Source: Combretum micranthum (taxonomy: Eukaryota > Streptophyta > Magnoliopsida > Myrtales > Combretaceae). From it: a DNA stretch of 64,000 nucleotides. Under the pieces are notes generated by a model. It saw nothing but the letters and a program-made list of their open reading frames with translations. It was not told where the DNA came from and did not search any database. How positions within the stretch are numbered: the first letter of the stretch is position 1; each line of letters begins with the position of its first letter. Location: the NCBI GenBank assembly GCA_024138025.1, contig JAMXBD010000971.1, positions 1 to 64,000 on the forward strand. Reading direction: 5' to 3'. Shown here one piece after another: positions 1-20,330 of the stretch. The translations under genes were made by a program, and so were the position numbers.

Positions 1-1527
1 CAGCAGATCCAACGCTCTAGATTTGATCATTCAGATCAGAGCCCAAGATTTGATCAAATAATCCAGCGCCAGATTGAAGGTCAGAGGATCAAACGGTCAG
101 GATCAGTCCTTAGATCACGCTCCAGTTCTCCTCGCTTCATCCAACGGTCCAAGTTAGTCTGTTTTATTGAATTATTTATTTAATTTCGAAAATAGGAAAA
201 ATTAATAAAAATTCGTAAAAAAATCCTTAATCATAAAAATCCAGAAAAATTAGAAAAATTATTGTTTAATGTATTTTACATGTTTTAACAATTTTTGATA
301 TTTTTTGATATTTTTGAATATGTATTTGCATATAAATTGATCTTTAAATATTATTTGATGCATGAGATGTTTTGTTTTTATTTTAATTCTGTTATGATAT
401 ATTTTGAATATGTTCTGTACATATGTGATGATTATTTAATTTTGAAAAATTAAATTGTAAATAGATTTTTTAAACCAAAATTGTTGTTGAATAATAAAGA
501 TAATTTTTTTTTAAATCATGATATTGATCAAGTTTTTTTTATCAAAATTTATCTTCATAAATTTACTATGAAGATATTAATCAAGTTTTTATAAAATTAT
601 CTTTATAAATTTTCTATGAAATAATACTCAAAGTTTTCAAAATTATTTTCATAAATGACTTTGAAAATAATTAAAGTTGTTCAAAAATGTTTTCATAAAT
701 TTACTATGAAAATATTTAATATTGTTTAATCAAAATTGATTTTCATGTAGCATTAAATTAGCCATGAATTGTCATAAATTAATGATTTTTGAACTTAGAA
801 AAATATATTTTTATGAAAATAAAATCAATTGATTAGATCATAGGATCATCAAAATTGGTTTTCATAAAAATTCAAAATTTAATGAACTTAAAGTGAGAAT
901 ATTTTAAAATATAAAATTGATCAACAAACTAAGTTCTTTATAAAAGAACTACGTTTTGTCTGATCTCGATTAGCGAGTACGTAGGCACCTACGGGGCGAC
1001 AATAAAATTAGAAAAAATATATTTTGTTTTGATAGTTTGAAATAATCATTTTGTACATATTATAATTTTTTTTTTTAAAAGGAAAAATACAAATGTTTGT
1101 TGATATTTAAATCCTAAAAAAAATACATAAAAATAAAAATGAATGATTAAACTTGTAGATATTTGTTTTATAAATGTTTTGTTTGAATTTTTTAGTATAG
1201 AAAAGGATAAATTCTAAATTTTAAATTTAAAGTGGTAACCGCTTAGGTTTTAATAGGTTAGCCCCCGACTCAGATATCTGGTTTTTTTTAAAGTTTGATT
1301 TTTAAATCAAACTTTTCGCAGACTAGTGGCTAAGTTAGGATTAACCGACCCATTAATCCTGGCTTTCATTTTTTTTCCGATTTATATCGGGTGGCGACTC
1401 CAAAATATTTTCAAAATTAAATTTCTTTTAATCCCTAGTCGAGGATTCATATGTTAAATGGGTTAGGGTTTAATATGAATCGGGTTAAAAGAAATGAACC
1501 GGATGATTTTCAAAATCAGGCTCGACA
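1..1527 (+). repeat. 5' LTR, 3' portion
   Basis: It aligns over its whole length with 12930-14467 and ends in CTCGACA, just before the primer-binding site. Differences from the other LTR include many one- or two-base indels. It contains a palindrome at 980-993 (CGTAGG, CA, CCTACG) and a 12-bp-arm inverted repeat at about 1290-1315 (arms AAAGTTTGATTT and AAATCAAACTTT), both also found in the 3' LTR. No gene is visible in it. Confidence 0.9.
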
Positions 1528-1530
1528 GCT

Positions 1531-1549
1531 TGGCGACTCCACTGGGGAC
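1531..1549 (+). other. Primer-binding site of the Tat-type element
   Basis: TGGCGACTCCACTGGGGAC begins three bases after the LTR end. The TGG start is complementary to a tRNA CCA end. In Ogre/Tat elements the primer is usually reported as tRNA-Arg; I infer the same here but cannot match it to a tRNA from the window. Confidence 0.75.
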
Positions 1550-2007
1550 TCGCTTATTTTTTAAAAAAAAAAAGGGGCTAGCCACTTAAGTTTAAAATTT
1601 AAAATTTATCCTTTATTTTTGTATATTGTTAATTATTGTTTGTATGTGTTTTTGTATATATGTCTGTAACTTAGATTTTAAATTAGTTCATTTCACTTGC
1701 ATGTGCATTTGCATTATGCACACAATGTGTGCTAGATACGGTCGAACCCAGGCCGTCTTAAGAGCCTAAGCGAGGAGTTCGAAGTAAGGTCCGGGGGCTG
1801 TGGTTTCCACCCTCTAGATCAAGAAAAGACTCCCACTCCGGTTTAGCCTTATGATTTGCTAGACCGGGGAACCTATAGAACCTTACCAAATCATGCATTC
1901 ATTCATGGGATTTGACCAATTTTTTTCAAAAAAATGGAGTTGTAAATTTTTTTTAAAAAAAAATTTAGGATTTGTCTCCTAATAGGGTCTTTATAAATCC
2001 TCAGGAA

Positions 2008-3526
2008 ATGATTTCCTCGAGTTCGGACAGTAGCGATAGCCTATGGGCTCGTCTCATCAAGGAACCCCGAGTAGAGACTTTCAAGGATCCAATGCTGTTA
2101 CTGGACCGATGGTTGGTCAGTTTTGACCCCGATCAACAATCATTCATTAAGGATAGGTTGGGCCGATCCTCAATTTACCTAAGTCCAAGTTCCATTTACC
2201 ATGTTTCGAGCCCTTGTTCATCTCTGGGAACCCAATGAAGTGGCATTCCGTCTAGGTCAACACGTGCTAAGTCCTACCATTGAAGAATATGCTAGGTTGC
2301 TTCAAGCCCCACCCACTTCCGAAGGGATCTATGTACCAAGCCTTACTCAAAGTCCGATCCGCATCATTTCAGAATTTTTGGGATTAAAAAGAGAAGCAGT
2401 AATTGAAGCCATGAAGGGTTGCAATGAATTCTCCATCCGATTAACTACCTTGATGGATTGGTTTGGAAACTTTGAATTACATAAGCAACCGAGATTCCTT
2501 TACAGTATCAGTTGTGACCTGGAATGAAAATCGGGTTAATGCTTTCATAGTGGCTGCTTTTGCTACCATACTCTTTCCACATGGGAACCTGTTCATTCAC
2601 TTCCGAGTCATCGAGCTTGTAGCACAATATCTAACTGGCAAGTCATATGTTCCCGCCCTTCTAGCAGAACAAATCAGAAGTTTGAATCACATCAAGTCTA
2701 AGGGCAGGGGCAGTTTCAAGGCAAGCATGCATCTGTTGATGGTTTGGTTCGCTAGTCACACCAAGTACTACGGAAAAGATCTAGCTAATGGGTCCCTTAT
2801 CCGCCCGAATTATGATCTCATCCAGTCTTTTGCTGAACGGGTCCATATGGAAGATAATGAGCCTTTCTGGTCTATACTTGCAATATTTGAAGACATGAGA
2901 CCTGAAGACTTTATGTGGCAAGCCCGTTGGTTTAAGTGTCCCGTTGCTATCTTAAGTTGCAAGAAATACCTAACTGTGCCTCTGATTGGAATCACTGGCT
3001 GTACAGGCTATTACCCCTCAAGTGTTATCCGCAATATGGCATGCTACAAGACATTACTGTCAAGCCAGAGTTGGGACGAGTTATTCTCGACTATATGGAT
3101 CCAACCATGACTCAGATAGCAAAGCAGTCCAAGGTAAACCAAATAAAAGCCATCTGGGATGATAGAGAAATCAAGCCAGTTTTCGAAGTCGAGCCAGAAA
3201 ATAAAGTGACTCGGGATTATAGAGCAACCAGGTGGTACATAGCCAATCAAATGAAGAAGAATAAGGACATCCAATATGAAGCTCCTAACATTCTTGAACC
3301 AGCACCACCTGAACCTGATCCTGAAATGATTGCTTACATGGAAATGGTTTCAGCTCGGCTTGAAGTCTGTCATCGGGATTACAAAGAGATAGAGATGATT
3401 GACCGCTTGGAAAAAGCTCACAATAGGATTGCACTGTTAGAGGATGAATTGAAGAAAGCTCGAAAAAGGACTCAACTACTTGAGGATCAAATCATCTGCC
3501 CTGCCAAGACTAGAAGACTAGTTTAG
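2008..3526 (+). pseudogene. Extra ORF between 5' LTR and gag (DUF7745 / plant-mobile-domain-like), frameshifted
   Basis: About 500 codons lie between the primer-binding site and gag, in the sense direction. Translation runs in four successive pieces (frames 1, 2, 3, 2), with breaks near 2190, 2480 and 3080, and no internal stop is needed if the frame is followed. The first piece has an FDPDQQSFIKDRLG stretch and the second HLWEPNEVAFRLG and SPTIEEYARLLQAP, the signature of the DUF7745/plant mobile domain proteins often annotated upstream of Tat gags. The C-terminus (about 3390-3510) is a heptad-rich coiled coil containing RIALLEDELKKA. The function is unknown. Its position inside the element, before gag, argues against a captured host gene of recent origin. 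The start ATG at 2008 is chosen as the first in-frame ATG before MISSSSDSSDS. Confidence 0.7.
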
Positions 3527-3819
3527 AAGTCCTGAGTTTAGTTTTAGCAATTAAGGTTCTTGAACTTTTAGTATAGTAATTTAACTTTGTATGAAAGATT
3601 GTTTTTTGAATTATTACAACTCCAATAAATGTGTTTATCAAAATTTGATGGTCATTATCCCCATTTGCATTCATATTTGCATCCTTGTGTTTGTATGTTA
3701 GTATTCTTATCTTCTTACTTCTTACGGTCCAGTTACGAATCAAGTCTAGCGAATCCAAAATCCTGAAAGATAGCTCCAAACCAGTTAGAAGTCCCATTTA
3801 TACTAGATCACGAGCAAAG

Positions 3820-5969
3820 ATGGCTAGTACCGGGAACACTACCCCTGATCAGACCACTGAACAGAGACTCAATGCCATGGAACAAACCCTGCTTAGAATT
3901 ACCGAACAAATGCAGACCCTTACTCAGAATGTTACCCAGTCCAAGACCCCTATAGCATCTGAAGAATCTTCCGGGGAACAGAAAGGAAAAGAAATCATGC
4001 AGCAACCAGTCAACGTTGATGATTCCCACACTGAGTTCAATATGTCCGAGCTAAAGAAAGAACTTGAAGCCCAAGCAGACATGGAGAAGAAACTGTTTGA
4101 AAAGATGAAGGCATTTGACGGCTTTGATCAGACTGCGATTTTAAGCCTGCCACAATTTGAGGAAGGTGCTTTTCCTGAAAAATTTAAGGCACCCGAGTTC
4201 GAAAAATATGATGGAACTGGCTGTCCTAACATGCACACAAGATTATATGTACGACGTATGGGGCAGTATGCCAAATTTGATAAACTGATGGTACAGACCT
4301 TTCAAGATAGCCTTACTGGTCCAGCATTAGCCTGGTATGCCCAATTGGACTCACAAGAAATTGATACTTGGGATAAATTAGCCAGGGCATTTTTCAACCA
4401 ATACAAGTTCAATATCGAAATGGCACCCTCGGTCTGGGATTTGAGTACTATGAAGAAGAAGAAAGATGAAGCTTTCAAGGAATATGCTCAGCGATGGAGA
4501 GCTTTAGCTGCAAGAATCACCAATCCAATGCCTGAAAAGGATCTCACTTTTACTTTCATCAACACACTAGAAGAGCCATTCTTTTCTCATCTCATAGGGC
4601 ATGCGTCAGCAAGTTTTTCAGAGTGGTAGTAGCCGGATGCAGAATTGAGAATGCTATCTCAGCCGGAAAGCTGCAAGTAGAAAAGAAATATACAGCACCT
4701 AAAAATGTCACGTACAAAGGAAAGGATTCGACTGTCGGTATGGTCAATATCTCAAGTCCAGCAAACCCTACTAAATCCATAGTTCTGCCGACCAATCAGG
4801 TCAAAGTCAACAAAGGGTTGTTTCGAATCAACAATCAAGGCCAACCGACGCAATTTTACTCCAATACCGGTTCCACTCAGCCAAGTGTGGGCTAAATTGA
4901 GAGCCGATAATCTGATTGGCTTTGAAGTACCCAGAGATGATTATAAGCCCAAGAACTACAACCCTGATTTAAAATGTGAATATCACATGGGGCAAATCGG
5001 GCACTCCACTGATTATTGTTGGAGACTCAAACATAAGATTCAAGATCTTATTGATGCAAAGACCATCCAATTAGACTTTGTGCAGCCTCCAAATGTTTCT
5101 ACTAATCCATTGCCAAATCATGGGTCGGTTATTAATATGATCACTGCCGAAGCGCCGGACCCAGAAGTCAACTTGGATGAATTGCCTATCACCATAGAAC
5201 AAGTGGCATGGAATCTCCGCCAAATGGGGCATTTACCCTATATCAATCTGAGAGATCGCACCAAAACCAGACCAGCCATTTACAACTTGTTGCAAAATGG
5301 AATCATAAAGAAAGAAGATATCATGGAAATGCTGGTCCCAAAGCCAAGAAAGTCAAGCACACAGGCAGAATTGTGGGCAAGATACCAAGCTGGAGACCCA
5401 ACTGTCGGAACTCTAGGAGATGATGGAAAGTACCAATATCTGGTTGACTATTGGTTTGAACCACGCGTATATGCGATGCTCCTGCCACTGGATGGGGATC
5501 AGAGTCTGAAGATGAAGAAAAGCCTGTACCAGAGAAAGAAGAAAAATTTGTTGGCATGATCACATGTGAACCGAAGTTAATCAAATTTGAGATGAACAAC
5601 AGTAAAGAAGAGGCAACTGTCTCGAAGCCTAGAAGTTATACTTTTCAAATCCCAATTGCTGTAAAGGATTACAAAGCTGCCCCATTTGATTACCAGACAG
5701 TTAATCACGCTTCTATGATTGGCGGGCTTACCCGTTCGGGAAGACTTTATGAACCAACTGCAAAGAAGGTGACCATGGATTCATCGCCGCCGCCGAATGA
5801 TGAAGAAAAGAAGGAAGATGAGAAAGCAATATTGGCTAAACTCATGAAGGCAAGTGAATTCAAAGTAGTTGAACAACTAGTCAAGACACCAGCCCAAATA
5901 TCACTCATGGGTTTGTTAATTAGCTCTGATATTCACCGTGAGGCCTTGTTCAAGTTCTCAAAGAAGTAA
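3820..5969 (+). pseudogene. gag: gag of the Tat-type element, frameshifted
   Basis: The start is taken at the ATG giving MASTGNTTPDQ. A Retrotrans_gag-like core (about 4140-4620) carries the GPALAWYAQL and YAQRWRALAARI blocks typical of Ty3 capsids. A zinc-knuckle-like C-x2-H-x4-GH-x4-C motif (CEYHMGQIGHSTDYC) lies at about 4975-5020. The reading frame shifts near 4620, 4890 and 5555. Gag forms the particle that packages element RNA. The 5556-5969 portion is an unassigned gag-protease linker. No in-frame nonsense codon interrupts the segments; the damage is by indels. Confidence 0.85.
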
Positions 5970-5983
5970 AAGTTCCAGAGAAT

Positions 5984-6535
5984 GTGACAGAAAAAACCTT
6001 GGAACATATCATTAATTCTGTCTTTGCAAATGAGCAAATTAGCTTCTCATCTGAAGAATTAGAAGAGGAAGGTGGCCAACATAATAAAGCTCTTTTTATT
6101 GTTGTCAAAAGCAATGGTAGAATCGTCTCCCGAGTGCTTATTGACAATGGATCTTCTCTGAATGTATGCCCCTGGCTACTCTGAATTTGTTGGAAGTAGA
6201 CCCGTCAAATATCAAGCCAAGTCCTACTAGTACGAGCATTTGATGGATCAAAGAAGGAAATAATTGGAGAAGTGGAATTAGAGGTCACTATTGGGCCTCA
6301 AACTTTCCTAATTCCTTTTCAAGTGATAGATATCCCAAGAACATTTAATTTGTTGCTTGGAAGGCCATGGATTCATGCAGCAGGAGCAATACCCTCAAGC
6401 TTGCACCAGAGGGTTAAATTTGTAGCAAATGGCCAACTTGTTACCGTTATGGGAGAACAAGATTATGCCATCTATCAAGAAAGCTATTCCATATATGGAA
6501 AAGGGAAGAAGAAGACTTGGGCTCCAAATATTTGA
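5984..6535 (+). pseudogene. pro: Aspartic protease region of the Tat-type element
   Basis: A retropepsin-like segment contains VLIDNGSSLNVCP (D-N-G-S at the position of the catalytic D-T/S-G) and, after a frame change near 6185, the family's second conserved block FNLLLGRPWIHAAGAIPS. Tat elements commonly have a D-x-G-S active site with variable second residue, so Asn may be lineage-normal. The protease would process Gag-Pol. The frame is broken between the two halves. Confidence 0.75.
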
Positions 6536-6813
6536 AGAAGTCTGTGTAATAAATGAAGAAAAAGAAGCTCAGATAGGAACTTTTGGCCTAGGATATTCTC
6601 CTACTCAAACAGAGGTAGCAGACATGAAGAATAAGATGAGAACAAGGAAACTTAATAAAGATATGATCCAGACATCGAAATCCCACATCAGAAGCTCCTT
6701 TCCAAAGCCTCATCATGTCCAGAGACAGATGACTCCAAGGAAGATGATCCACCCAAGAAGATAGCTTTGAAGAATTGGTTTTCCATACCTTGTGCTAGTT
6801 TTAATTTTCTTAA

Positions 6814-6958
6814 GTAAGGACCGATATTAGATTGCGTTTTGTATTTTTCTGCTTTATGTGTTGCTCAAATAAGTGTACTTAAACACCATTTCAAATTTAA
6901 TAAAATTCTTTTGTGTTTTTTCCATATTCTTATTCTTTCCCCATTCATATTCTACCAG
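6814..6958 (+). other. Probable intron between protease and reverse transcriptase
   Basis: The upstream frame is open to a GTAAGG donor and would stop immediately inside it (aag taa). A long pyrimidine tract leads to ctaccag at 6952-6958, and Pol-like coding resumes just after. Ogre elements are known to carry a spliced intron at this place. The size, about 145 bp, is an estimate from these two sites. Confidence 0.5.
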
Positions 6959-7069
6959 ATCCGACTTTTGTAATGAGTTCCGGGATATCTCGCGTCTGTA
7001 AATACTGAAAATATCGATATCACCTCCAACCCTACTGGGTTAGTCGTTGAAGATGATATCGATTATCAA

Positions 7070-8600
7070 TTGAAAACACAAGAAAATTGGCAAAACTTTG
7101 ATCATGAAAGGATTGAAACCCCTGAACCCACTAAATTGGTTAATTTGGGAACAAGTGAAGATCCTAGGAATTTGAGAATTGGGGGTAAATTGCCAGAAGA
7201 CACAACACAGGGTTTGATTAAGTTACTAGCAGAGTATTTGGATGTTTTTGCATGGTCATATAGTGATATGCCCGGTTTAGATCCGTCAATTGTGGTCCAT
7301 AAATTGCCAACCAAAGAAGGCATTAAGCCTAAGAAGCAAAAACTAAGGCGATTTAGACCCGATTTGCTACTTAAAATTAAAGATGAGGTCAAGAATTACT
7401 CGAAGTTGGATTCATTGAAGTTTCGGATTACTCAGATTGGGTATCAAACATAGTACCAGTACTTAAGAAAAATGGGAAACTTAGAATCTGTGTGGACTTT
7501 AGAGACTTGAATCAAGCGACCCCAAAAGATAATTTCCCGTTGCCACATATTGATGTCTTGGTAGACAATACAGCTGGAAACCATCTATTCTCATTTATGG
7601 ATGGATTTTCGGGATACAATCAAATATTGATGGCCGAAGAGGACAAAGTCAAAACCACATTTGTCACAGCCTGGGGAACTTTTTGCTATAAGGTCATGCC
7701 ATTTGGTCTCAAGAATGCCGGAGCAACTTATCAGCGAGCAATGCAGACCATATTGCATGACATGATGCATAGAGAGGTGGAAGTATTGTTGATGACATGA
7801 TTGCCAAATCAAAAGAAGGAGAAGATCATGTGGAAGTATTAAGGAAACTTTTTGAAAGATTGAGAAAGTTTCAATTAAAATTAAACCCAGAAAAATGCAT
7901 TTTTGGAGTAACTTCTGGGAAACTATTGGGATTTGTGATCAGTCAAAGAGGAATAGAAATTGATCCTGATAAGGTCAAAGCAATTCAGAATTACCTCCCC
8001 CAACAACTTTGAAAGAAATTAGAGGTCTTTTGGGGAGACTAAATTACATTGCTCGATTCATTTCCCAGTTGACGGATAAATGTCAACCATTTAAATTATT
8101 GAGAAAAAATGCCCAAATTGAATGGAATGAAGAATGTGAAGAAGCCTTTAACCGAATTAACAGTATCTGACAAATCCCCCAGTTTTGATCACTCCAGTAC
8201 CCGAAAAGCCTTTGTTCTTATACTTGACAATTTTTTCGGAATCCATGGGTTGTGTACTCGGGCAAAAAGATGAAATGGAAAAGAAAGAGCTATTTATTAC
8301 TTGAGCAAAAAATTCTCAAATGGAGAGCAAAAGTACTCAGAGATAGAAAGAACTTGCTGTGCATTAGTATGGACTATGCATAGACTCAGGCAATACACGC
8401 TCTTCTACTCAATCGAGTTAATTACAAAGCATGATCCTTTGAGGTATCTGGCAAATAAGCCCGCCTTGGTCGGTCGAATTTCAAAATGGCAAATGTTGCT
8501 GTCTGAGTTTGATATTACCTATGTTAGACAAAATTCAATTAAAGGACAAGCCTTGGCTGATCAACTCGCTGAAAGCCCGGTTGATGAGGAACTAAAGGAA
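7070..8600 (+). pseudogene. pol: Reverse transcriptase and first RNase H of the Tat-type element, frameshifted
   Basis: RT blocks are in order: an N-terminal DVFAWSYSDMPG segment, then ICVDFRDLN, FPLPHIDVLVD, FSFMDGFSGYNQI, VMPFGLKNAGATYQ, and the region of the catalytic YVDD near 7788-7800. The frame breaks inside YVDD: the two Asp codons are readable but in a different frame from the residues just before. A further break lies near 7400, and others near 8010 and 8160-8300. The first RNase H continues through FSNGEQKYSEIERTCCALVW and a KHDPLRYL block. The enzyme would copy element RNA into DNA; this copy looks inactive. Confidence 0.9.
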
Positions 8601-8648
8601 CAAGATCAATTCCCCGATGAAGGGATTCGGGTAACACAAACGGAAGAT

Positions 8649-9060
8649 GAAAGAATGCCGAATTGGAAATTGTATTTTGATGGAGCAGCTAATGTGTATG
8701 GATGTGGAATAGGGGCAGTCCTAATTTCACCTGAAGGAAACCAATACCCAACAGCGGCCAGATTAATGTTCCCTTATACGAATAATATAGCAGAATATGA
8801 AGCATGCATTTTGGGTTTAGAGATGGCAATCCAAATGGAAATTCAAGAGCTCGAAGTTTTTGGAGATTCATCACTTATTATTTTTCAAACTCGAGGAGAT
8901 TTTAAAACAAAGGATCCCAAGTTGATTCCTTATCATAATCACTTGGCAGAATTGATAGAAAGATTCAGGGAAATCTCCTTTGTATATGTGCCAAGAACTC
9001 AAAATCAGTTTGCTGATGCTCTGGCTACTTTGGCCTCATTAATTCAGTTTACTGAAGGAG
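8649..9060 (+). pseudogene. Second, archaeal-type RNase H (aRNH) domain
   Basis: It lies in the long open frame 8301-9830, between the first RNase H and integrase. All four acidic catalytic positions can be seen: D in WKLYFDGAAN, E in NIAEYEACILGLEMA, D in LEVFGDSSLI and D in NQFADALATLASL. A second RNase H acquired by plant Ty3 Tat elements is established for the lineage and is the best single marker for classifying this element. The domain itself is intact, but the Pol frame around it is not. Confidence 0.85.
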
Positions 9061-9319
9061 CAAGAATCCAACCTTTGCAAGTCCGGGTGAGAAGTGAACC
9101 CGCATTCTGCACCATGATTGAATCAGATGAACCCTGGTTCCAAGATATTAAAGTTCTTTTGCAAACGGGTAATTATCCTGAAGGTGCTACCAAGAAAGAT
9201 CAGAAGTCACTGAGGCGTTTGGCCAGTCATTTTTTGCTAAGTGGAAATACGTTATACAGAAGATCATTCGACACGACTTTGTTAAGATGTGTAGATGAAA
9301 AAGAGGCCCAGAAGCTCAT

Positions 9320-10378
9320 GGAAGAAGTTCACGAAGGAATTTGTGGTCCTCATATGAGTGGTTACATGTTAGCCAAAAAGATTATGAGATTAGGATACTT
9401 TTGGTTAACTATGGAATCAGACTGTATCAAACATGTGAGATCTTGTCATTTATGCCAGATCTATGCAAACAAGATAAGTGCCCCTCCAAAAGAATTACAG
9501 TTAATGTCAACCCCATGGCCTTTCTCAACATGGGGGATAGATGTTATTGGGCCAATTTCACCTAAAGCTTCAAACGGTCATCGGTTCATATTGGTTGCAA
9601 TCGATTACTTCACTAAATGGGTAGAAGCCGCTTCCTATGCAAGTGTAACGAAGTCCGTGGTTGTGCGGTTTATCAAAAGAGACATCATCACTAGATATGG
9701 AACTCCGGAAAGTATCATCACTGATAATGGTACGAATTTGAACAACAAAGAAGTAACAAATTTGTGTCAGCAATTCAAGATCAAGCATCGGAATTACTCC
9801 GTATCGGCCACAGATGAATGGGGCAGTTGAAGCCGCCAATAAGAACATCAAGAGAATTATTGAGAAGATGACCATTGTCTATAAAGATTGGCATGAAATG
9901 TTACCGCTCGCATTAATGGCGTATCGAACGTCTGTAAGAACATCAACCGGGGCAACACCTATTCCTTGGTATACGGAACTGAAGCTGTTTTACCTGTAGA
10001 AGTTGAAATTCCATCACTTCGTATATTAGTAGAAACCAAACTCGATGAAGCTGAGTGGATAAAACAAAGATTTGAACAGTTGAATCTGTTAGATGAAAAG
10101 AGGCTGACTGCAATGTGTCACGGCCAGTTATATCAGCAAAGAATGGCTAAGCATTCAACAAGAAGGTCAAGCCAAGAAGCTTCCAAGAAGGTGATTTGGT
10201 TTTGAGAAAGATGCTGCCAAATGTACAAGACTCCAGAGGAAAGTTCACACCAAATTACGAAGGACCGTATGTAGTTAGAAAAGTATTGTCGGGAGGAGCA
10301 TTGATTCTTTCCCAAATGGATGGACCTGATTTAAAGGATCCTGTAAACTCAGATGCTGTAAAGATGTATTATGAATGA
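9320..10378 (+). pseudogene. int: Integrase of the Tat-type element, frameshifted
   Basis: The HHCC zinc-binding module starts at HEGICGPHMSGYM and ends CIKHVRSCHLCQ. The catalytic core has WGIDVIGP (first Asp) and ITDNGTNL (second Asp); the Glu is in MNGAVEAANKN at about 9814, one frame away because of a break just before. Further frame changes are near 9960 and 10200. The C-terminal part (GKFTPNYEGPYVVRKVL) ends at tga 10378. No chromodomain follows, consistent with Tat rather than chromovirus. Confidence 0.88.
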
Positions 10379-10756
10379 TCAAAAAATTTGTCATTTTCTG
10401 TGTTCAGTTGATTTCATTTTTAGTTTTTACAAGCAAAGTTGATATCCAAAAACTTTGAACTCAGGTCAAATCTCAACCCGTTAATTAAATCATTCAAACA
10501 AATTTCCAAAAATTCTCAAATCAGAAAATCTCATCCCATTCATCACCAAATAACCATAAATTCTCAAACCAGATCAATCTCAACCTATCACTTAAACAAA
10601 TTCCCAAACCCAATAAAACTGTTAGAAAGTAATTTGAGCATCCCATATGGCTTAAAATGCATATATGCAATTTTATCTGGTGATTTATTGCACAAGTAAC
10701 TAGTTTTTGAACACGGTTATGTGAACAACGGAAAAGCCCTAAACACATTAACCGAC

Positions 10757-11100
10757 GTAAGATCAAGATTCTTCAAATGGATCAAGAAGTTTAGAGTTCC
10801 TCAAATGAATCAACAAGATCAAGTTTCCTCAAATGGATTAAGAAGATCAAGTTTTCCCAAATGAATCAAAAGTCAAGTTTATGAGAAAATTAAGTGGATC
10901 AAGATAGATCAAGTTTCCTCAAATGGATCAAAAAGATCAAGTTTCCTCAAGTGGATCAAATGGATCAAAAAGATCAAGTTTCCTCAAGAGGATCAGAAAG
11001 TTAAGTTCCCAAGAAAAAATCCTAAGTGGATCAGAAGATCAAGTTTTCCTAGAAGATCAAGTTTCCGGAAGATCAATAATTCCAAATGGATCAAGAAACC
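10757..11100 (+). repeat. 3' UTR tandem repeat array a
   Basis: Diverged units built round GATCAAGTTTCCTCAAATGG recur with irregular spacing (about 24-45 bp). The core TCC-tcaaat-GGA recalls the small stem-loops of arrays b and c immediately downstream. No coding is supported. Tandem repeats in the 3' UTR are a known habit of Tat/Ogre elements. Confidence 0.8.
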
Positions 11101-11131
11101 AAATCTTTAGGTTTCAAAAATCCCAGTAAAC

Positions 11132-11256
11132 CAAAGCCCATAGGTCCGGCAAATGACCAAACCAAAGCCATAAGTCCGGCAAATGACCAAACCAAAGGCC
11201 ATAGTTCCGGCAAATGACCAAACCAAAGCCCATAGGTTCGGCAAAATGACCAAACC
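11132..11256 (+). repeat. 3' UTR tandem repeat array b (about 31-bp unit, 4 copies)
   Basis: There are four copies of a unit containing CCATAGGTCCGGCAAATGAC at 30-31-bp spacing. The first copy has arms GGTC (11143-11146) and GACC (11155-11158) around an 8-nt loop CGGCAAAT; the others keep the loop but have weaker arms. The loop and geometry resemble array c. Confidence 0.85.
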
Positions 11257-11486
11257 TAGGTTCGATAGATAACCTAACAGTTTTCTATAATCTAGACCCG
11301 ACAGACGGTCTATCAGTTTTTTAGTCTAGGCCCGACAGATGGCCTATCATTTTCTAAATCTAGGCCCGACATATGGCCTATCATTTTTCTAAATCTAGGC
11401 CCGACAGATGGCATATCATTTTTCCAAAGCCTAGGCCCGACAGTTGACCTAGCAAATCTTAAAGTCTAAACTCGACAGATAGTTTA
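11257..11486 (+). repeat. 3' UTR tandem repeat array c: seven stem-loop units with paired arm changes
   Basis: Seven units start at 11257, 11293, 11327, 11361, 11396, 11432 and 11467 (34-36 bp apart). Each consists of a 6-nt arm, an 8-nt loop (mostly CGACAGAT) and a 6-nt arm. Arm pairs are TAGGTT/AACCTA, TAGACC/GGTCTA, TAGGCC/GGCCTA (twice), TAGGCC/GGCATA, TAGGCC/GACCTA and TAAACT/AGTTTA. Five of seven pair perfectly although four different arm sequences are used. Confidence 0.9.
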
Positions 11487-11560
11487 GCACAAGATAAAAA
11501 TCTCTTGTTAAAAACAAAATTTGGCAGGAGAAATTAAGCAAAAATTGGCTATCCTTTTGT

Positions 11561-11606
11561 CTTTGTGGCAAAAGTTTTGTTCAAACTTTACCACAAAGAA
11601 GGGCAG
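11561..11606 (+). other. Hairpin and polypurine tract before the 3' LTR
   Basis: CTTTGTGGCAAAAGTTT (11561-11577) and AAACTTTACCACAAAG (11583-11598) form a near-perfect inverted repeat with a 5-nt loop. The second arm runs into the purine-rich AAAGAAGGGCAG that directly precedes the LTR start TGTAGACACC. The tract would prime plus-strand DNA synthesis. Confidence 0.7.
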
Positions 11607-14467
11607 TGTAGACACCAATTTTTGCCCAATTAAAAATTAGGCTTAAGTTTAGAATAAATTAATGTCATGTTGAGTTCATTAAAAAATAAAATATAATAAT
11701 AAAAATAATAATAATAGTATAATAAAAAAGAGAGAAAAGAGAAAATAGAAAAAATAAAAAAAATAGAGGAATAAAATATGTATAATAAAATAATTAAATG
11801 AATAATAGTAATGTAAATAAAATATATGTAAGAAAAATTAAAATAAATAATTATTTGAGCTTATATAACATATATTTTATTAGTCTTAAGTATTAGTGGG
11901 TAAGCTATATGACCAAGGCACAGGCCAACGGCCTAACAGTTCAGACCATGGACACAAGAGCAAAGGGACCCGAGTTCGATCCTAGCCCAAGGCAGATTTT
12001 ACGTCTTTTTGTTCAATTTTTTTTTTCCAAAAGACACATCGGTTCATCCACTTTGAGACATCATTTGATCAACGAATCTTTGTGTTTTTTCGAAATTAAC
12101 AGTGCAGACACAAACTGGGCATGGGATACATCACATCTATACACAATTCGTGTATTATTTCATCCTAAAAGGCACATTAATTGAGTCATGAAAATTGGGA
12201 AAAAATTCGAATGGACATGATTTTTCAAATTTCAAAATTGGCCGAATTGTATCAATTGATCAAATTAAATACACTTAATCAAGGAGTCATGATCTGTAAA
12301 CATAAGATTCGTGATCAATTTGAATCAACAATCACGAATCGAGTCCCAATTTTGAATCGTTCTTATGTGAAAAAAGTATAACGATTCGTGATTCAAAAAT
12401 TGAACCATTACAAAGCTTCGAAATGACAAATTGTTTCGAACTCTATAAATAGGATCACCCACAAGCAGAAAGCACAATTCAATTTTGCAAAATACACACT
12501 ATAAGATCGAGATCTGAAAATAGAGGAGAAAGTGTTCGAATTGCAAAAATTGCAAATTCGAAGTGATTGGGAGGATTTCGATCCAATTAAAGAGTGTTAG
12601 GATCATTTAGGTAGTGTTTTTGATTGATTATAGTACTTAGATTTGCTCGAATTTGCAATTGGAAGTTCTGCAAATTTTTTGAAATTTTTTTAATCCTTGC
12701 CGCCGTCAACCACCGCACGAACCACCACCATCAGCAGACGCGGCTCCTCCATTCACGTCGGGCCGACAAGGTTTCTGGGATCGAGGACCACCAGAATCGG
12801 CCGATGAACGCTTTGAAACCACCGTCATCGTCTTCTTCACCCGACGGAGCTCCCGAGATCCGACCCGAAATCCGAATCCAACCCGGTCGATCATCGGTCA
12901 ACGTCGGTCAACGGTCTTCGATCAACAGTCAGCAGATCCAACGCTCCAGATTTGATCATTTAGATCAGACGGCCCAGATTTGATCAAATAATCCAACGCG
13001 CCAGATTGAAGGTCAGAGGATCAAACGGTCAGGATCAGTCCATAGATCAGACGCTCCAGATCTCCTCCGCTTCATCCAACGGTCCAGGTTAGTCTGTATT
13101 ATTGAATTATTTATTTATTATTTATTTAATTTCGAAAAATAGGAAAAATTAATAAAAATTCTTAAAAAATCCAGAAAAATTCAGAAAAATCCAGAAAAAT
13201 TATTTTTAATGTAAATTTACATGTTTTAACAATTTTTGTATTTTTTGAATATGTATTTGCATATAAATTGATCTTTAAATATATATTTGATGCATGAGAT
13301 GTTTTGTTTTTGTATTTTAATTCTGTTATGATATTTTGAATATGTTTGTACATATGTGATGATTATTTAATTTTGAAAAATAATAAATTGTAAATAGATT
13401 TTTTAAACCAAAATTGTTGTTGAATAATAAAGATAAATTTTTTTTTAAATCATGATATTGATCAAGTTTTTTTTTTATCAAAATTTATCTTCATAAATTT
13501 ACTATGAAGATATTAATCAAGTTTTTATCAAAATTATCTTTATAATTTTCTATGAAGATAATACTCAAAGTTTTCAAAATTATTTTCATAAATGGACTTT
13601 GAAAATAATTAAAGTTGTTCAAAAATGTTTTCATAAATTACTATGAAAATATTTAATATTGTTTAATCAAAATTGATTTTCATGTAGCATTAAATTAGCC
13701 ATGAATTGTCATAAATTAATGATTTTTTGAACTTAGAAAAATATATTTTTTATGAAATAAAATCAATTGATTAGATCATAGGATCATCAAAATTGGTTTT
13801 CATAAAAATTCAAAATTTAATGAACTTAAAGTGAGAATATTTTGAAAATATAAAATTGATCAACAAACTAAGTTCTTTATAAAGAACTACGTTTTGTCTG
13901 ATCTCGATTAGCGAGTACGTAGGCACCTACAGGGCGACAATAAAATTAGAAAAAATTATTTTGTTTTGATAGTTTGGAATAATCATTTTGTACATATTAT
14001 AAGTTTTTTTTTTTGAAAAGGAAAAATACAAATGTTTGTTGATATTTAAATCCTAAAAAAAATACATAAAATAAAAATGAATGATTAAACTTGTAGATAT
14101 TTGTTTTAAATGTTTTGTTTGAATTTTTTAGTATAGAAAAGGATAAGTTCTAAATTTTAAATTTAAAGTGGTAACCGCTTAGGTTTTAATAGGTTAGCCC
14201 CCGGACTCAGATATCTGGTATTTTTTTTAAAGTTTGATTTTTAAATCAAACTTTTCGCAGACTGGTGGTTAAGTTAGGATTAACCGACCCATTAATCCTG
14301 GCTTTCATTTTTTTTTCCGATTTTTATCGGGTGGCGACTCCAAAATATTTTCAAAATTAAATTTCTTTTAATCCCTAGTCGAGGATTCATATTGAATGGG
14401 TTAAGGGTTTAATGTGAATCGGGTTAAAAGAAATAAACCGGATAGTTTTAAAAATCCAGGCTTGACA
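11607..14467 (+). repeat. 3' LTR of the Tat-type element (2861 bp)
   Basis: It starts TGTAGACACC after the polypurine tract and ends CTTGACA. The U3 part (11607 to about 12440) has no counterpart in the window. A GC-rich patch at about 12700-12930 stands out from the AT-rich remainder and is followed by GATCAGA/CAGATTTGATCA motifs. Open frames within it lack family signatures and codon-like conservation and are not annotated. Confidence 0.92.
12444..12451 (+). promoter_or_regulatory. LTR TATA box
   Basis: TATAAATA in the context actcTATAAATAggatcaccc is the best core-promoter match in the LTR. Transcription of the element would begin about 30 bases downstream; the start site is inferred, not seen. 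Confidence 0.6.
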
Positions 14468-14569
14468 ATTTTTTTACTAAATTAATTTTATTAACTTTTC
14501 CTAATCATAATTTATTATCTATTTTACTTGCTTCATTTTAATCTATCTAAATCCAATTTCTAACTTAGA

Positions 14570-15811
14570 TGAAGCTTTGAGATATTTCAATAGTAGTAGT
14601 AGTATGAAGTAGAGTTGTATTGGGTTGAGTAACATGTCCTCCAATAACAATATGTGGTGTAGCTTAAGAGGATAAGGATCCTCTAAGCTGAATTCCCATG
14701 TTTCTTGCTCGAGGTGCAAGCAATCGTGTAATTATAGGCTCCAATGGTAAGACTTGCTCTTCAACTCTAGTAAGATCCTATTCATGAGTAGGAAGAGGAT
14801 TAGCAAGTTGGGGTGCTTGAGGAGATTAAGGTACCTAGAAAGTGTGTTGTTGCACAACAATAGCAGGGCTTGATAAAGTCGTGCTTTGTTGCATGACAGC
14901 AATAGTAGCTATACTAAGCAAGTATTGGGTAAACATCACCATGAGTTAATTGAATTGCCTCATGCTCTTAGCATCGGTTGATTGACTTGAGCAGTATTTT
15001 CTTGCACCATACATAAGATTTCGGCATTGTCAGGTTAAGTACCAACAGGTTAATTAATATCCTTAAGCGCTGGCACATTATGCTCAACAACTTTAGAATT
15101 AACATTGGGTTCTTAAGCCATCCTCTTTGTTAAGTCGGTAGGTCTCTTTCATGGAGGTGCCATCTTGCAAGTGTCAATTTCCCTCTCCCTAGTGGAGTTG
15201 CAAAAAAATGTGTGGGTAAGGATCTGATCACAACGATCACGTGTGTATTGTGTGACTATTACACTACAAGTGACCTAGGGAAACACACATATGAGGATGA
15301 TCAAGAATGAAGTGTGTAGGGAGAAGGAGTAGACAATCTCAATAAGCTCTAACACACGTGTGATAGGTGAATGAGTTATAAGGCATCGACCTCACTATAT
15401 ATGATGAATTGATGATTGTTATTGATTATGACAAGTGTTTAATTCATCAAGATGAAAATCTGACAACACGATAGTGTTTGTTCCCGATTTTACTTATCTA
15501 AATGAGATGGGGAGTAGTGGTAGTTATAGGGAATCCAATTATCGTTATTGTCTGTCAAATAAGATGGACAACCAATGGCTAGGATGAGTCTTCCTCATAA
15601 TGAATATTATAGTGGGTTCCCTTGTGGACTCAAGCTCATTAATGCCTTTATTTGTATTGTATGAGCCAATCAAGTCTATCATGCAAGTTCTCCCATGATC
15701 ATCTCAAATAACTGGACCTAACTCTCTAAGTCCTATCACATTAGCCTAGAAAATTAAACCCAAATAAAAAAATAGGCTTAAAGCCTTTATAATCAAATTC
15801 ATACATCTACA
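14570..15811 (-). mobile_element. Decayed antisense LTR-retroelement 5' end (LTR, primer site, gag start)
   Basis: Read on the minus strand, an LTR-like stretch (about 15811 to 15204) is followed by TTGCAACTCCACTAGGGAGA (15203-15184). This resembles the Tat primer site TGGCGACTCCACTGGGGAC. About 20 bases later an ATG (15163) opens a degenerate gag-like frame starting MAPP-KRPTDLTKRMA and continuing, with several stops, to about 14570. The LTR resembles the solo LTR at 46867-47531: both share a gagactgtctgctcctcctccc-like and a CACGTGA-rich end. No pol is present. The inner border at 14468-14570 abuts the Tat element, so the remainder may have been separated by that insertion. Confidence 0.5.
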
Positions 15812-16625
15812 GATGTCAATCTAATGTTTAAGTTATTAGAAAGAATAGAAAATGACAAAAAAAAAAAGAAGCAGAAGAAGAAACACACATGTGATCTACA
15901 TGCGCACAAATAAAAAGAATCTATATAATTGTATTTTTTTTTCCTTTTGACATCATATTTCTTTTTGTACTATTTAGATTCTTTTTAATATTTTTTAAAT
16001 ATTCTCTAGTTAAATTTATTATATTTGATTATCATCAGTGTTAAATCAAACCAAAATTTCCCATTATTTACTCCATCAATTTTAAGGAATATAAATTTTA
16101 ATTAAAAAAAGAAAAAATTGGGATTCATGCAATTTCTAAAGGTTTTAAGATATATGCATACAATTTACTGTAAAATTAATATAAAGAATTAACTTAAACA
16201 AAAAGTGTTGTGTTTAAAGAAATCAAAAAAGAAAGGGTTCGGTTACTTCTAATTTAAAGTAATAAGTCAATACCGATTTTTTTTATATGAAAAAAATTGG
16301 AATCAAAACAAAGAAGTCATGGTATAATGAGAAAATTTGCCCTAAGAAAAGCAAATCAACCATAGTCCGACTAGTATACACAGGCTAAACAACCATCGTA
16401 TTATTGTCTAACATTATTCCTAGAAGAACCAAAAAGATCAATCAAATTTGTCCTTCTGAGGTCTCCATTAAGATTTAACATAAGACCTACTTTTCCAATG
16501 TTGTCTTCTACCAAATTGGTCTCTTGGAGAAAATAAGATCTTTACTTCCTAAAATTTTTCCATCTTGTCCTTACACAAATTCAAGACAACACAAGAAAAA
16601 AAAAAGGATTATTATTGATGTTATT
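15812..16625. other. AT-rich intergenic stretch, no gene seen
   Basis: It contains low-complexity A/T runs and no ORF, RNA gene or element end that I can support. It forms the left flank of the next retrotransposon. Confidence 0.6.
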
Positions 16626-18343
16626 TGTAATATACAAATAAATAAATCATAGTAAAGGATAAAGTTGTCATACTTTTAATAAGAGAGTTTTATGGTCCAA
16701 TCTAATATGAATAATAATGTTATGTCAAGTGACAGATGTATTTGATCAAGTGGGAGTTGTTTAAGAAAGATAGGAGGACACAGTAGCTAAGCAGCCCATA
16801 GGCCGTTGGCCTTTGTATTAACGTCATCAGTTTTAACCTTTACACCATCGGCGTCGAACGCTAGCCTTCTTTATTCCCACTTTCGTCTTTCGAGTTTCAA
16901 GCTACCAGTGTATAATCTAGGACGCCAGCTTATATCTTTATACTGCCAGCCTATGTTGTTAGCCTTCATACACGAATTTTTAAGATTTTCCATGTATTAT
17001 ATATTGCCCTAGCCTCACTTCTTCTTCTCAAAACCTCTCATAAGCTTTAGGGAACCTTGAAATCCTCTATCAAGGTTGTGATCTTGCTTTAATGAAGAAT
17101 AAGAATCAAATAATAGGTAAGTTGGTTTCTTTTCAATCCTTTAACAATCTAAAAGAATTATCTTTCTTGAATTTTCTTGTTGATATTGAAGGAAGTCAAA
17201 ATTTTGGAGAAACCTTAAGTTTTGTGGTTGGAGATTTAGTGGTTCTACAATCAAAAGAATGAAGGTATGTATGAACCTAAGGTAATTGTAGTTCTTTTTA
17301 ATTTATGGTTTAGATGATAATAGAAATACGTTTACCTTTTTGGAAACAAGTTTTGAGTTAGTATTTAATGGTATTCAACTATCGTTAGTGAAGCTAGGTT
17401 ATCTATTCTAAACGTTGTTTTAGGTATGTCCTTACCTTGGTTGTTGTTTATGATTGTAGATTTAGTATTTGTAAATGGACTTAATACTATATGGTTTTAA
17501 TTGGTTTGCTGCTTATGTTTGGTTGAGTCTAGTAGACCGAGAGTACTGTGTCACTAAGATAACACCCTGATGATCTGGTGTGTGATGTTATTCCTAGTTG
17601 AGTTGTGCACAAAGATAATTTTGGTAGTTTATGAGTGGTACGGGTACAGTATCTAGGGTATATAGGGAGTACTTAATACCAATATATATATATATAAGTA
17701 TTTTGTATACATATTTGTTTTTTTATGGAGTCATGAGTTACTTCAGGTTTAGAATTAGTTGCAAATGGTTCTAAATTATGTTGTTTGCTTAGCTAATTAA
17801 AGATAATAACCCGTGGTTGTTGCATAAATTATTAGGTTGCATGTGAATTTGTTAATTTATATGATTTTTGTTCATGCGCATGTGATTGTGGTTTGGCGTA
17901 CTAAGCCTTACACTCATTCCTTCTATTTTTTAGGTTCAGGTGAAGAACTTATAGTGTTCAATTTGTCAGGTTATGATAAATTCGTGGATTCTGAAAAGGA
18001 TGATAGTGGAGCTAACTTTCTAGTTGATTTTTAGATATTTTGGATTGGAGATAGCTAGAATTGAATACTTTATAAAACTTTAAATAGTTTTTATGATTTT
18101 GAAATTTTATGAGACCTTTTCTTATGATATTTTAGGTTTATTGTAAGTTAGCTTTTGGTTTATACCAACTAAGATGTTCAGGAGTTTTGTTATTTCATAA
18201 TGTTTTAACAATACCCCAAAATGTGAGATATTGATGTTATATGGAATTTATAATTGTGGATTTGTGGAATAATAGCCTTAGTGTGTCGATATCTAGTGAA
18301 GATACGTGGTGGACTGATAACGCTTTTAGTTTAGGGCATTACA
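16626..18343 (+). repeat. 5' LTR of the chromovirus-like element
   Basis: It starts TGTAATATAC and ends GGGCATTACA. It aligns with 32254 to about 33920, for example at the shared AGGACACAG(C/T)AGCTA segment near 16775 and 32408. The expected primer site after the end is degraded (gcttaagcgattttag). Open frames at 16806 and 17837 lie inside the LTR and are not genes. Confidence 0.85.
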
Positions 18344-18550
18344 GCTTAAGCGATTTTAGTGCTTAGTTTGTAAATCTTATTAGATCTAAGTTATGAACTC
18401 CTTAGGACAGTGAGCAATGATGAGTGAGGCAACCAATAGTTAGGGTAGTTTGTCTATTTAGAATTGTTGTTTAGTAGTTTTCTATATTTTTTGTTCCTCT
18501 TAACATGTTATATCTCTTTTCTCATGTTTTATGTGTTCATCCTTGTTAGA

Positions 18551-19735
18551 ATGCCACCTAGGAGAAGAGCCCCTAATGTTGGTTCCTCCAGGATTAAAGA
18601 AGAAGGAGTTAATAGAGGATAACCACATGAGAACCAGCCACTCAGAATTAGTTACCGCAAGACTTACCACCACCACTGCCCCTACCTATAGGTCAACAAG
18701 TGGTAGTTGATGTTGCTCAGCTCATGTAAGCAATGAATACTCTTTTTGAGGGTAGTTGCACAACAACATCAGATTATGCGTTAGGATGTGCAGGTGATAC
18801 ATGCCAATGCTGAGACCTGGAGATAGGAGACACAAAGACAGAACAACAATGGTGGTAATGGTGCCATCCATACTAATGTGCTAAGTTTGAACAAATTTGT
18901 GGATTTAGTATACAAGTTTGAGCCAAAGCCTGGAAGGCCGATTGATACTCAATTATGGATAGAAGAAGTAGAAAAGACCTTTGCTGCTCTAGATATTCCT
19001 GAGACTAAAAAGGTAGAGTATGCTTCTTATTTGCTGATTGAAAGAGCAAATAACTGGTGGTTGAGCACCAAGAGACATATGGTTGGAGTGATTAGCTGGG
19101 ACAGATTCCAACAAGCTTTTCATAGGGAGTTTTTCCTTGAGAGCATCAAATAATAGATGCTACAAGAGTCCTATACTCTACATTAAGGCCGTACGACTAT
19201 TGAGGAATATCAAGCTGAGTTAAACAGGTTGATGAGGTTTCTGCCAGACCCTTTGAAAGAGAGTGAGGATGCCAAGGCAAGCAGATTTATCACAAGGTTA
19301 GAACTTGAGAATCAGCATCATGTGGACTTGCTGGATTTGACTACTTACTTTGTTGTGTTCAATAAAGCGAAGACTGTTGAGCAAGGCTTGAATAAAATTG
19401 AAGGTCGAAGGGCATAGAGGAGTCAGGTTTGTTTAGGAAAGTGACCAGCTACTAATGCCCTTCCTCAGAAAAGGGAAGAGGCAGATCACACAGCAATTCA
19501 AGGAACTAATAAGAAGTGCACCGGCTGCTATGGACCACATGATATTAAAGATTGCGAATGGGTGGAGAATGCATGCTTTGCATGTGGCAAGGTTAGGCAT
19601 AGCCACAGATCTTGTATAGAGAAAGTTATCCCACAAGTATTCTATTTCAAATGTGGGCAACGTGGACATAAGGCCATAAACTGTAAAGAGCTTAGTAGTC
19701 CAGTAGCTCTAAGGGTTTAAATAGGCTAATCTCAG
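18551..19735 (+). pseudogene. gag: gag of the chromovirus-like element
   Basis: The ATG opens MPPRRRAPNVGSS, a start typical of Tekay-like gags, but stops follow within 25 codons. The capsid core is readable at 18878-19153 (KPGRPIDTQLWIEEVEK, then RANNWWLSTKR) and 19229-19417. Three zinc-knuckle-like CCHC motifs follow at about 19508-19690 (CTGCYGPHDIKDC, CFACGKVRHSHRSC and YFKCGQRGHKAINC). In the last the first Cys is Tyr. Gag would assemble particles; this copy is dead. Confidence 0.82.
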
Positions 19736-19751
19736 GGTAGCGGCCAAGGAA

Positions 19752-20330
19752 AAAGAGTACTAGCTAAGGTTTATGCCCTCCAACACAGAAATACATATAG
19801 TGTGGACACTATTATAGGTGCGCTTCCTATACTCCTGCATAGTGCCTATGTGCTTTTTGATACTAGTGCAAATTTTTCCTGCATGTCTAAATCTTTTATG
19901 TCTGTATGCGATATGTGTGTGGAGAATATAACTAAATGATTGTCTATAGACATACCTCTGGGGAGTGGAACCATGTTAAACAAGATTTGTAGGAATGTGG
20001 ATGTAGATATAGAAAGTAGGCATCTACGTGCAGATCTAGTAGTGTTGGACATGGTAGACTGTGATATAATCTTGAGAGCAAATTGGTTGGCAAAGTATCA
20101 TGCTGTGATTGATTATCATAACCTAGTAGTGGAGTTTAGTTTGCCAGATGGGGTTCGGTTTGTATATAAGCTTGAAGTGCAAAGACCTCTATCTCTACCT
20201 ACATATGAGTTGTGGGGAGGGTCAACTTTAGCTATGAAAACTATGATGACAGAAGATAAACAAAAGACTAACCTTGCACGAGTACCAATAGCATGTGAAT
20301 ACCTCAACGTTTTTTCAAAAGATCTATAGG
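19752..20330 (+). pseudogene. pro: Aspartic protease region of the chromovirus-like element
   Basis: The active-site block reads VLFDTSANFSCMS, where the family has D-S/T-G-A; the Gly is replaced by Ser. The second conserved block is CDIILRANWLAKYHAVIDY (family: DVILGMDWL). A stop lies between them near 19936. The tail FSKDL-stop-GLPLERE matches the family's link to RT. Confidence 0.75.

Follow-up and report, generated by a model that had tools for sequence, protein, structure and literature searches.

The hypervariable region of Tat-lineage LTR retrotransposons is said to have been described by Macas et al. in 2009. The tandem repeats that elements of this lineage (Ogre, Retand) carry in their 3' untranslated region (UTR) are described as hypervariable and of unknown origin and function (PMC11963269, PMC7004042), and the array analysed here resembles them in its position between pol and the 3' LTR, in its family-specific sequence and in its variable length; it differs from them in that its unit is a stem-loop with covarying arms. 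The terms 'secondary structure', 'hairpin' and 'stem' are absent from the main text of PMC11963269, as are 'secondary structure' and 'palindrom' from that of PMC7004042, and hairpin arrays in Tat/Ogre 3'-UTR repeats are not told of in the titles and abstract beginnings of the open-access literature, among the matches listed. Tandem repeats at the pol–3' LTR position of the Tat lineage are, according to these sources, already known (PMC7004042, PMC11963269). New, as far as listings of the open-access literature go, is the unit as a covarying stem-loop.

Among retroviruses, the constitutive transport element and the Rev response element act in export or packaging. Our array is likened to them by description only: both would present stem-loops with a repeated loop on the genomic RNA, protein-bound in the retroviral elements and putatively so here, and the array differs in being tandem and of variable copy number.

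Materials and Methods

A single genome of 1.86 Gb (5442 contigs) was searched. The unit pattern TAGGCC, CGACAGAT, GGCCTA, admitting at most two mismatches, was found at 2945 + 2734 places (5679), and its reversed control at none. Thirty-one loci (L009-L039) were drawn from 100 listed places of this search, all exact TAGGCC/GGCCTA matches, so that this part of the sample favours the TAGGCC/GGCCTA type. Seventy further loci (L040-L109, hereafter junctions) were picked by polypurine tract (PPT) and LTR start, with a pattern blind to the array and free of that bias; it occurs at 1262 + 1204 places genome-wide (2466), and of 100 listed places 70 were used, 12 already lay within fetched stretches and 18 were left out. 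Some junctions duplicate the first 31 loci; arrays sharing their last five units were counted once, giving 71 arrays, 943 units and 111 distinct arm pairs. For eight LTR stretches, position was the sole criterion of retrieval.

Covariation was measured on 63 distinct units, namely the 58 common to at least two arrays, those of the window and two solitary forms (see below); in the alignment designated A2, five of the 63 rows, being out of register, were left out, while the seven window units and the two solitary forms were included. Tree tests used the units with at least three of six Watson-Crick pairs (905/943), a filter with a slight bias toward pairing. The generic covariation test was R-scape-like; its statistic was non-specific and its null sets numbered 30.

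Results and Discussion

The window, i.e. the whole stretch of 64,000 nt that was analysed (C971:1-64000), begins with a Ty3/gypsy LTR retrotransposon occupying its first 14.5 kb (Table 1), which on its domains and layout is classed as Tat/Ogre-type. The element has a broken pol, and its two LTRs share 93.6% identity across 1569 aligned columns (27 mismatches, 40 gap openings). In angiosperms, Ogre or Retand are marked by a second RNase H (aRH) in the interval between RNase H and integrase (PMC6317226). The ORF at 8301-9830 has this order (RT_RNaseH at residues 1-70, RVT_3 at 136-244, Integrase_H2C2 at 331-388 and rve at 407-498), and its RVT_3 would correspond to the aRH. An extra ORF 5' of gag is a mark of Ogre, to which the ORF preceding gag, matching DUF7745 with an E value of 1e-15, therefore points, and tandem repeats in the 3' UTR, a Tat/Ogre feature, are also present. 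In Retand, pol and the 3' LTR are separated by an ORF in antisense orientation, in most cases with TRP28 (PMC11963269); no antisense ORF was found here, all eight ORFs of at least 120 aa overlapping positions 1-20000 being on the plus strand, in a copy that may be decayed. A search with the gag protein gave, as nearest matches, proteins without a name that are up to 78-79% identical to a portion of the query. The highest-listed protein with a name (44% identity) is labelled Salmonella enterica, probably a contamination, and the other organism names listed are those of plants, such as Cucumis melo (42-45%), Gossypium and Vicia, which points to a plant genome. Downstream of the 5' LTR, TGGCGACTCCACTGGGGA at 1531-1548 resembles what we take to be a primer binding site of the arginine-tRNA type. 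The 3' end of the 5' LTR (GGCTCGACA then G, 1519-1528) has CGACAG in common with the loop of the hairpins described below.

Table 1. Features of the element and of its 3' repeats (positions in the window).
Feature	Positions	Strand	Evidence
5' LTR, truncated at contig start	1..1527	+	LTR alignment, genome search
Extra ORF 5' of gag, DUF7745 / weak plant mobile domain (under its cut-off)	2463..3110	+	domain search
gag ORF	3685..4629	+	domain and protein searches
RNase H, second RNase H (RVT_3), integrase	8301..9830	+	domain search
31-bp tandem array, unit TAGGTC, CGGCAAAT, GACCAA	11128..11256	+	Tandem Repeats Finder, other copies
Unit 1: TAGGTT, CGATAGAT, AACCTA	11257..11276	+	sequence
Unit 2: TAGACC, CGACAGAC, GGTCTA	11293..11312	+	sequence, other copies
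Unit 3: TAGGCC, CGACAGAT, GGCCTA	11327..11346	+	sequence, other copies
Unit 4: TAGGCC, CGACATAT, GGCCTA	11361..11380	+	sequence
Unit 5: TAGGCC, CGACAGAT, GGCATA; one mismatch	11396..11415	+	sequence
Unit 6: TAGGCC, CGACAGTT, GACCTA; C.A mismatch, arm pair in 13/71 arrays	11432..11451	+	sequence, other copies
Unit 7 (last type): TAAACT, CGACAGAT, AGTTTA; 7 bp with outer C-G	11467..11486	+	sequence, other copies
PPT-adjacent hairpin: CTTTGTGG CA AAAGTTT-TGTTC-AAACTTT A CCACAAAG	11561..11598	+	junction folds, covariation
Polypurine tract (common family form AGAGGGGCAGC)	11599..11606	+	genome pattern search, sequence
3' LTR	11607..14467	+	LTR alignment, sequence

About 120 bp 5' of the 3' LTR ends the array that the sequence-only reading had described (11257-11486), and its account of the location in a retrotransposon 3' UTR and of seven 34-36-bp units with 6-nt arms around an 8-nt loop, five of them with a perfect 6-bp stem, was confirmed. 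The unit starts are spaced 36, 34, 34, 35, 36 and 35 nt, Tandem Repeats Finder calling 11252-11451 with a period of 34, and 40 of the 42 arm positions are Watson-Crick, with one mismatch each in units 5 and 6. When the right arms were permuted among the units, 24 of the 5040 orders attained 40/42, which makes within-unit pairing by chance unlikely even on the window copy alone. The loop, which had been given as mostly CGACAGAT, is indeed near-constant, but exact in three of the seven units and one base off in each of the other four. Unit 1 would be the first-unit type TAGGTC/GACCTA after one further paired change. The array folds better than its shuffles on both strands (sense z -2.57, 0/200 as good; antisense z -2.92, 2/200), and the minimum-energy RNA fold leaves at least one unit without a hairpin of its own. 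None of the 4227 Rfam families matched in window 1-15000 at the gathering score, and one unit pattern had no exact match in viral contigs.

Pairing of the loops with the rest of the element was rejected, since 7-base pieces complementary to either loop are absent from the plus strand of window 1-14500; together with the loop not being self-complementary, this also makes loop-loop dimerisation less likely. An origin of the loop from the LTR end or primer binding site was rejected as well, the seven unit forms scoring 12-18 there as against a best of 19-24 elsewhere in the element.

The hairpin signal looks to extend beyond these seven units, into the 31-bp array immediately 5', which appears to be a diverged relative of the 34-36-bp unit. 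Its form in the window has an A.A mismatch at pair 2, a form that is widespread, and perfectly paired forms of the same unit (TTGGTC/GACCAA, TAGGTC/GACCTA) occur in other copies. Among the 70 junctions, 52 had two or more perfect hairpins whose loop is of the CGACAGAT/CGGCAAAT type and four a single one, nine had an array based on GCTCAAGGAGC instead and five had none of the arrays sought; in 45, two or more perfect arm pairs of different sequence were present.

Five fully paired types recur through the 71 arrays: TAGGTC/GACCTA (52 arrays), TAGACC/GGTCTA (38), TAGGCC/GGCCTA (37), TAAACT/AGTTTA (35) and TTGGTC/GACCAA (28). They make up most of the eight arm pairs present in at least ten arrays, the others being one with G-U (TAAACT/GGTTTA, 16 arrays) and two with a mismatch, TAGGTC/GACCAA (A.A, 34 arrays) and TAGGCC/GACCTA (C.A, 13); a further mismatched type, TAGGTC/GTCCTA, is found in five. 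Eighteen arm pairs occur in at least five arrays (five fully paired, five with G-U, eight mismatched, some of these being units shifted by one base) and 41 in at least two (six, 11 and 24, respectively). Of the 70 private arm pairs, 62 are mismatched, seven have G-U and one, CTAGGC/GCCTAG, which is offset by a base from the rest, is fully paired. The arm variants of the window are thus mostly old, inherited unit types common to other copies, with the exception of TAGGTT/AACCTA, which among the 71 arrays is limited to the window and L109.

The paired types can be arranged as a chain, TTGGTC/GACCAA, TAGGTC/GACCTA, TAGGCC/GGCCTA, TAGACC/GGTCTA, TAGACT/AGTCTA, TAAACT/AGTTTA, from which TAGGTT/AACCTA branches off to the side. 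The first step of the chain exchanges A-T and T-A, without a wobble intermediate. The gap in the array types is bridged by TAGACT/AGTCTA, known from a solitary hairpin, so that every step is one base pair. This hairpin (TCAGTC-TAGACT-CGACAGAT-AGTCTA-G(T)ACTGA; a CGACAGAT-type loop on a 12-bp stem with a single bulge) is found 5' of the array, 316-1846 nt before the PPT in the 17 loci with a readable distance, and was matched in 18 of 102 loci (L035, L037, L039, L015, L017, L021, L042, L050, L052, L076, L079, L084, L085, L087, L090, L092, L094 and L098, of which L050 and L052 repeat L015 and L017). It is also present in four junctions without this kind of array (L076, L079, L090, L092). With less strict criteria, 18 distinct sequences were recovered, five of them with G-U (TAGACT/AGTTTA) and one with A-C (TAAACT/AGTCTA), and window 9801-11640 yielded none. 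The array units may descend from this solitary hairpin.

As for the earlier claims on the arms, the paired changes are real, but they do not represent seven independent histories. A single inverted-repeat conversion event, which the sequence-only reading had named as a possible source, does not account for them, since successive types in the chain are separated by one base pair each; arm changes independent of each other, which it had also considered, are what is seen in the recent private changes and not in the commonest types. By our count the paired types trace to about six events, which limits the independent evidence.

Pairing is nonetheless kept well above expectation in the other copies. 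In the 63 distinct units, 95.5% of the cells are paired, as compared with 83.2 +- 1.1 in shuffles and 9-46% when the arms are slid; changes on both sides number 64 (21.5 +- 6.9 shuffled, 0-11 slid) and the covariation score is 0.510 (0.274 +- 0.019 shuffled). The two remaining of five measures did not exceed the shuffles (both-side-changed pairs, 5 vs 4.1; further pair types, 9 vs 8.4). Both-side change was seen at five of the six stem pairs. Corrected mutual information was highest at columns 5-16 and 4-17 among the column pairs at least 4 apart; the next pairs, 12-19 and 9-19, lie outside the pairing of the arms and are due to a linkage between loop and arm within unit types. Against a tree-aware null with 438 distinct 34-base units, the Watson-Crick fraction was 0.907 vs 0.497 +- 0.073 (max 0.713, 0/400) and both-side cells 443 vs 112.7 (max 349, 0/400); with a tree built without the arms, the observed pairing was reached in 0/400 and the both-side cells in 1/400. 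In the generic test, only pair 4 was significant, ranking first among 465 (E<0.033); pair 5 was second (E=0.53) and pairs 3, 6, 2 and 1 were 7th, 21st, 34th and 91st. The covariation test over other copies that the sequence-only reading had asked for thus speaks for the stems having been kept, the generic statistic doing so at pair 4 only, and the interpretation given in that reading is partly supported.

Cross-unit pairing instead of hairpins is disfavoured: among 599 pairs of neighbouring units with different arms, pairing within units averaged 5.39/6 with 773/1198 perfect, vs 4.33/6 and 115/1198 across units. In a scan of the fetched loci for loops of 4-13 nt closed by perfect 6-bp arms, CGACAGAT had the most different arm pairs (six), and more than two matched arm pairs were otherwise found with its own variants only.

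A second hairpin, of 15 bp, abuts the PPT and is predicted in most of the 40 distinct sequences obtained from the 70 junctions (exceptions are e.g. L046 and L106). It also covaries, on three of five measures: in 31 distinct sequences 88.8% of the cells are paired (86.9 +- 0.4 shuffled) and both-side changes number 15 (5.6 +- 1.7 shuffled, 0-6 slid), whereas both-side-changed pairs (4 vs 3.4) and further types (11 vs 11.7) are not above shuffles. The both-side changes fall between family branches at four pairs (G-C/A-U, U-A/C-G, A-U/G-C/U-A and A-U/G-C), the U-A/C-G pair being unpaired in 19 of the 31 sequences.

Preservation of the stems through paired arm changes is best explained, in our opinion, by selection acting on a nucleic acid in its folded form, which is probably the transcript. 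Conservation of the fold is likely; fold conservation together with the RNA reading is what we favour, with more confidence than doubt. Pairing, its sharing among copies and the stepwise paired changes are directly observed, and suggest that the element preserves the shape of the fold and not the sequence itself. Counting against a strict constraint, two mismatched types are widespread and the recent private changes are mostly one-sided. Since the arrays lie between pol and the PPT, they would be inside the genomic RNA, and the array would then be a series of short stem-loops within the 3' untranslated part of that RNA. Source copies would keep the stem of each unit closable while the arm sequence drifts by paired substitutions. 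The 8-nt loop (CGACAGAT and the related CGGCAAAT) is less free to vary, and the length of the array changes as whole units are amplified and lost, probably in reverse transcription.

The balance between G-U and A-C bears on which molecule folds. In the distinct arm pairs there are 57 G-U and 53 A-C, vs 94 and 84, respectively, in shuffles; units common to at least two arrays have 16 vs 6, and private units 32 vs 29. Nine of the 16 G-U of the common units are at pair 6, whose C sits in a CCG context, in which plant methylation raises C-to-T change, so that 16 vs 6 does not establish that the sense RNA folds. Genome-wide, pair 4 has its G-U form, the only form so counted, at 108 places. With no clear excess of G-U over A-C, this comparison does not separate sense RNA from single-stranded DNA or from template-switch correction.

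The latter is the main rival, and we consider it rather unlikely. In reverse transcription, a fold-back would copy the change of one arm onto the other, leaving hairpins as a functionless by-product with arms that would likewise stay complementary, and a depletion of G-U as strong as that of A-C is what is expected if reverse-complement identity is maintained. However, quasi-palindrome correction predicts frequent recent perfect corrections, whereas a single one of the 70 private arm pairs is fully paired and seven have G-U, which indicates that recent correction is not frequent; mismatched types have stayed uncorrected through many copies (34 and 13 arrays), and unrelated loops in the fetched loci reach at most two matched arm pairs.

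Selection on single-stranded DNA or on a DNA cruciform (in minus- or plus-strand synthesis, or in chromatin), and not on RNA, appears improbable. It is in accordance with the sense strand having no clear G-U excess and with both strands beating their shuffles in folding, but the arrays would be part of the genomic RNA, and the covarying PPT hairpin would act, if at all, on RNA or on an RNA-DNA hybrid. That a few old types, palindromic by chance, were amplified and shuffled with no function or mechanism, ancestry mimicking covariation, is very improbable and already disfavoured: the independent events are few and five of the six pairs fail the tree-aware generic test, but the pairing-specific tree-aware null, the chain of single matched-pair steps, its A-T to T-A change included, and the permutation within the window all stand against it.

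If selection on the folded transcript is accepted, the job of the fold can be approached with less confidence. As its most likely job, we tentatively propose that the array is a multivalent platform to which Gag or a host RNA-binding protein would bind, in the service of export, packaging or the control of translation. Should the unit be a selected stem-loop, the function of the repeat becomes testable through the partner of the loop and through the fold; one can ask whether such satellites begin as RNA structures, and arrays without a common sequence might be recognised by their fold. More broadly, the 'hypervariable' Tat/Ogre 3'-UTR repeats could be variable in sequence and conserved in fold, a solitary master with the CGACAGAT loop having been amplified into interchangeable hairpins that form a multivalent protein-binding cis element (packaging/export), with the different arrays of the branches (CGACAGAT, CGGCAAAT, GCTCAAGGAGC and the LTR AATTTAC loop) doing the same job; this possibility we put forward with some reserve.

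Further repeats were seen in the same family. Arrays with a GCTCAAGGAGC core lie beside the same PPT in L062, L066, L068, L075, L077, L080, L083, L089 and L091, with arms that include CAAACGC/GCGTTTG and CAAATGC/GCATTTG. In the eight loci with at least ten cores (89 distinct arm pairs), 297 cells are paired, vs 236 +- 8 in shuffles (max 262).

Tandem units of about 48 bp within the LTRs also fold as hairpins, mostly with the loop AATTTAC, in the window (542-726 and 13472-13683) and in L110, L113, L115, L116 and L054; the first four of these loci are among the eight LTR stretches fetched by position. Their arms are CTTCATA/TATGAAG, CTTTATA/TATAAAG, TTTTCATA/TATGAAAA and TTCTCATA/TATGAGAA. The statistics are weak, the observed pairing of the nine distinct units being reached by 40 of 500 shuffles.

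Degenerate 18-65-bp tandem repeats, rich in GATCAAG, lie 5' of the hairpin arrays at window 10759-11076, by eye with no clear matched arms. The 3' UTRs of L041, L049, L055, L076 and L079 contain short repeats in which 5-bp hairpins with the arms CCATC/GATGG, CTATC/GATAG and CCTTG/CAAGG can be seen by eye.
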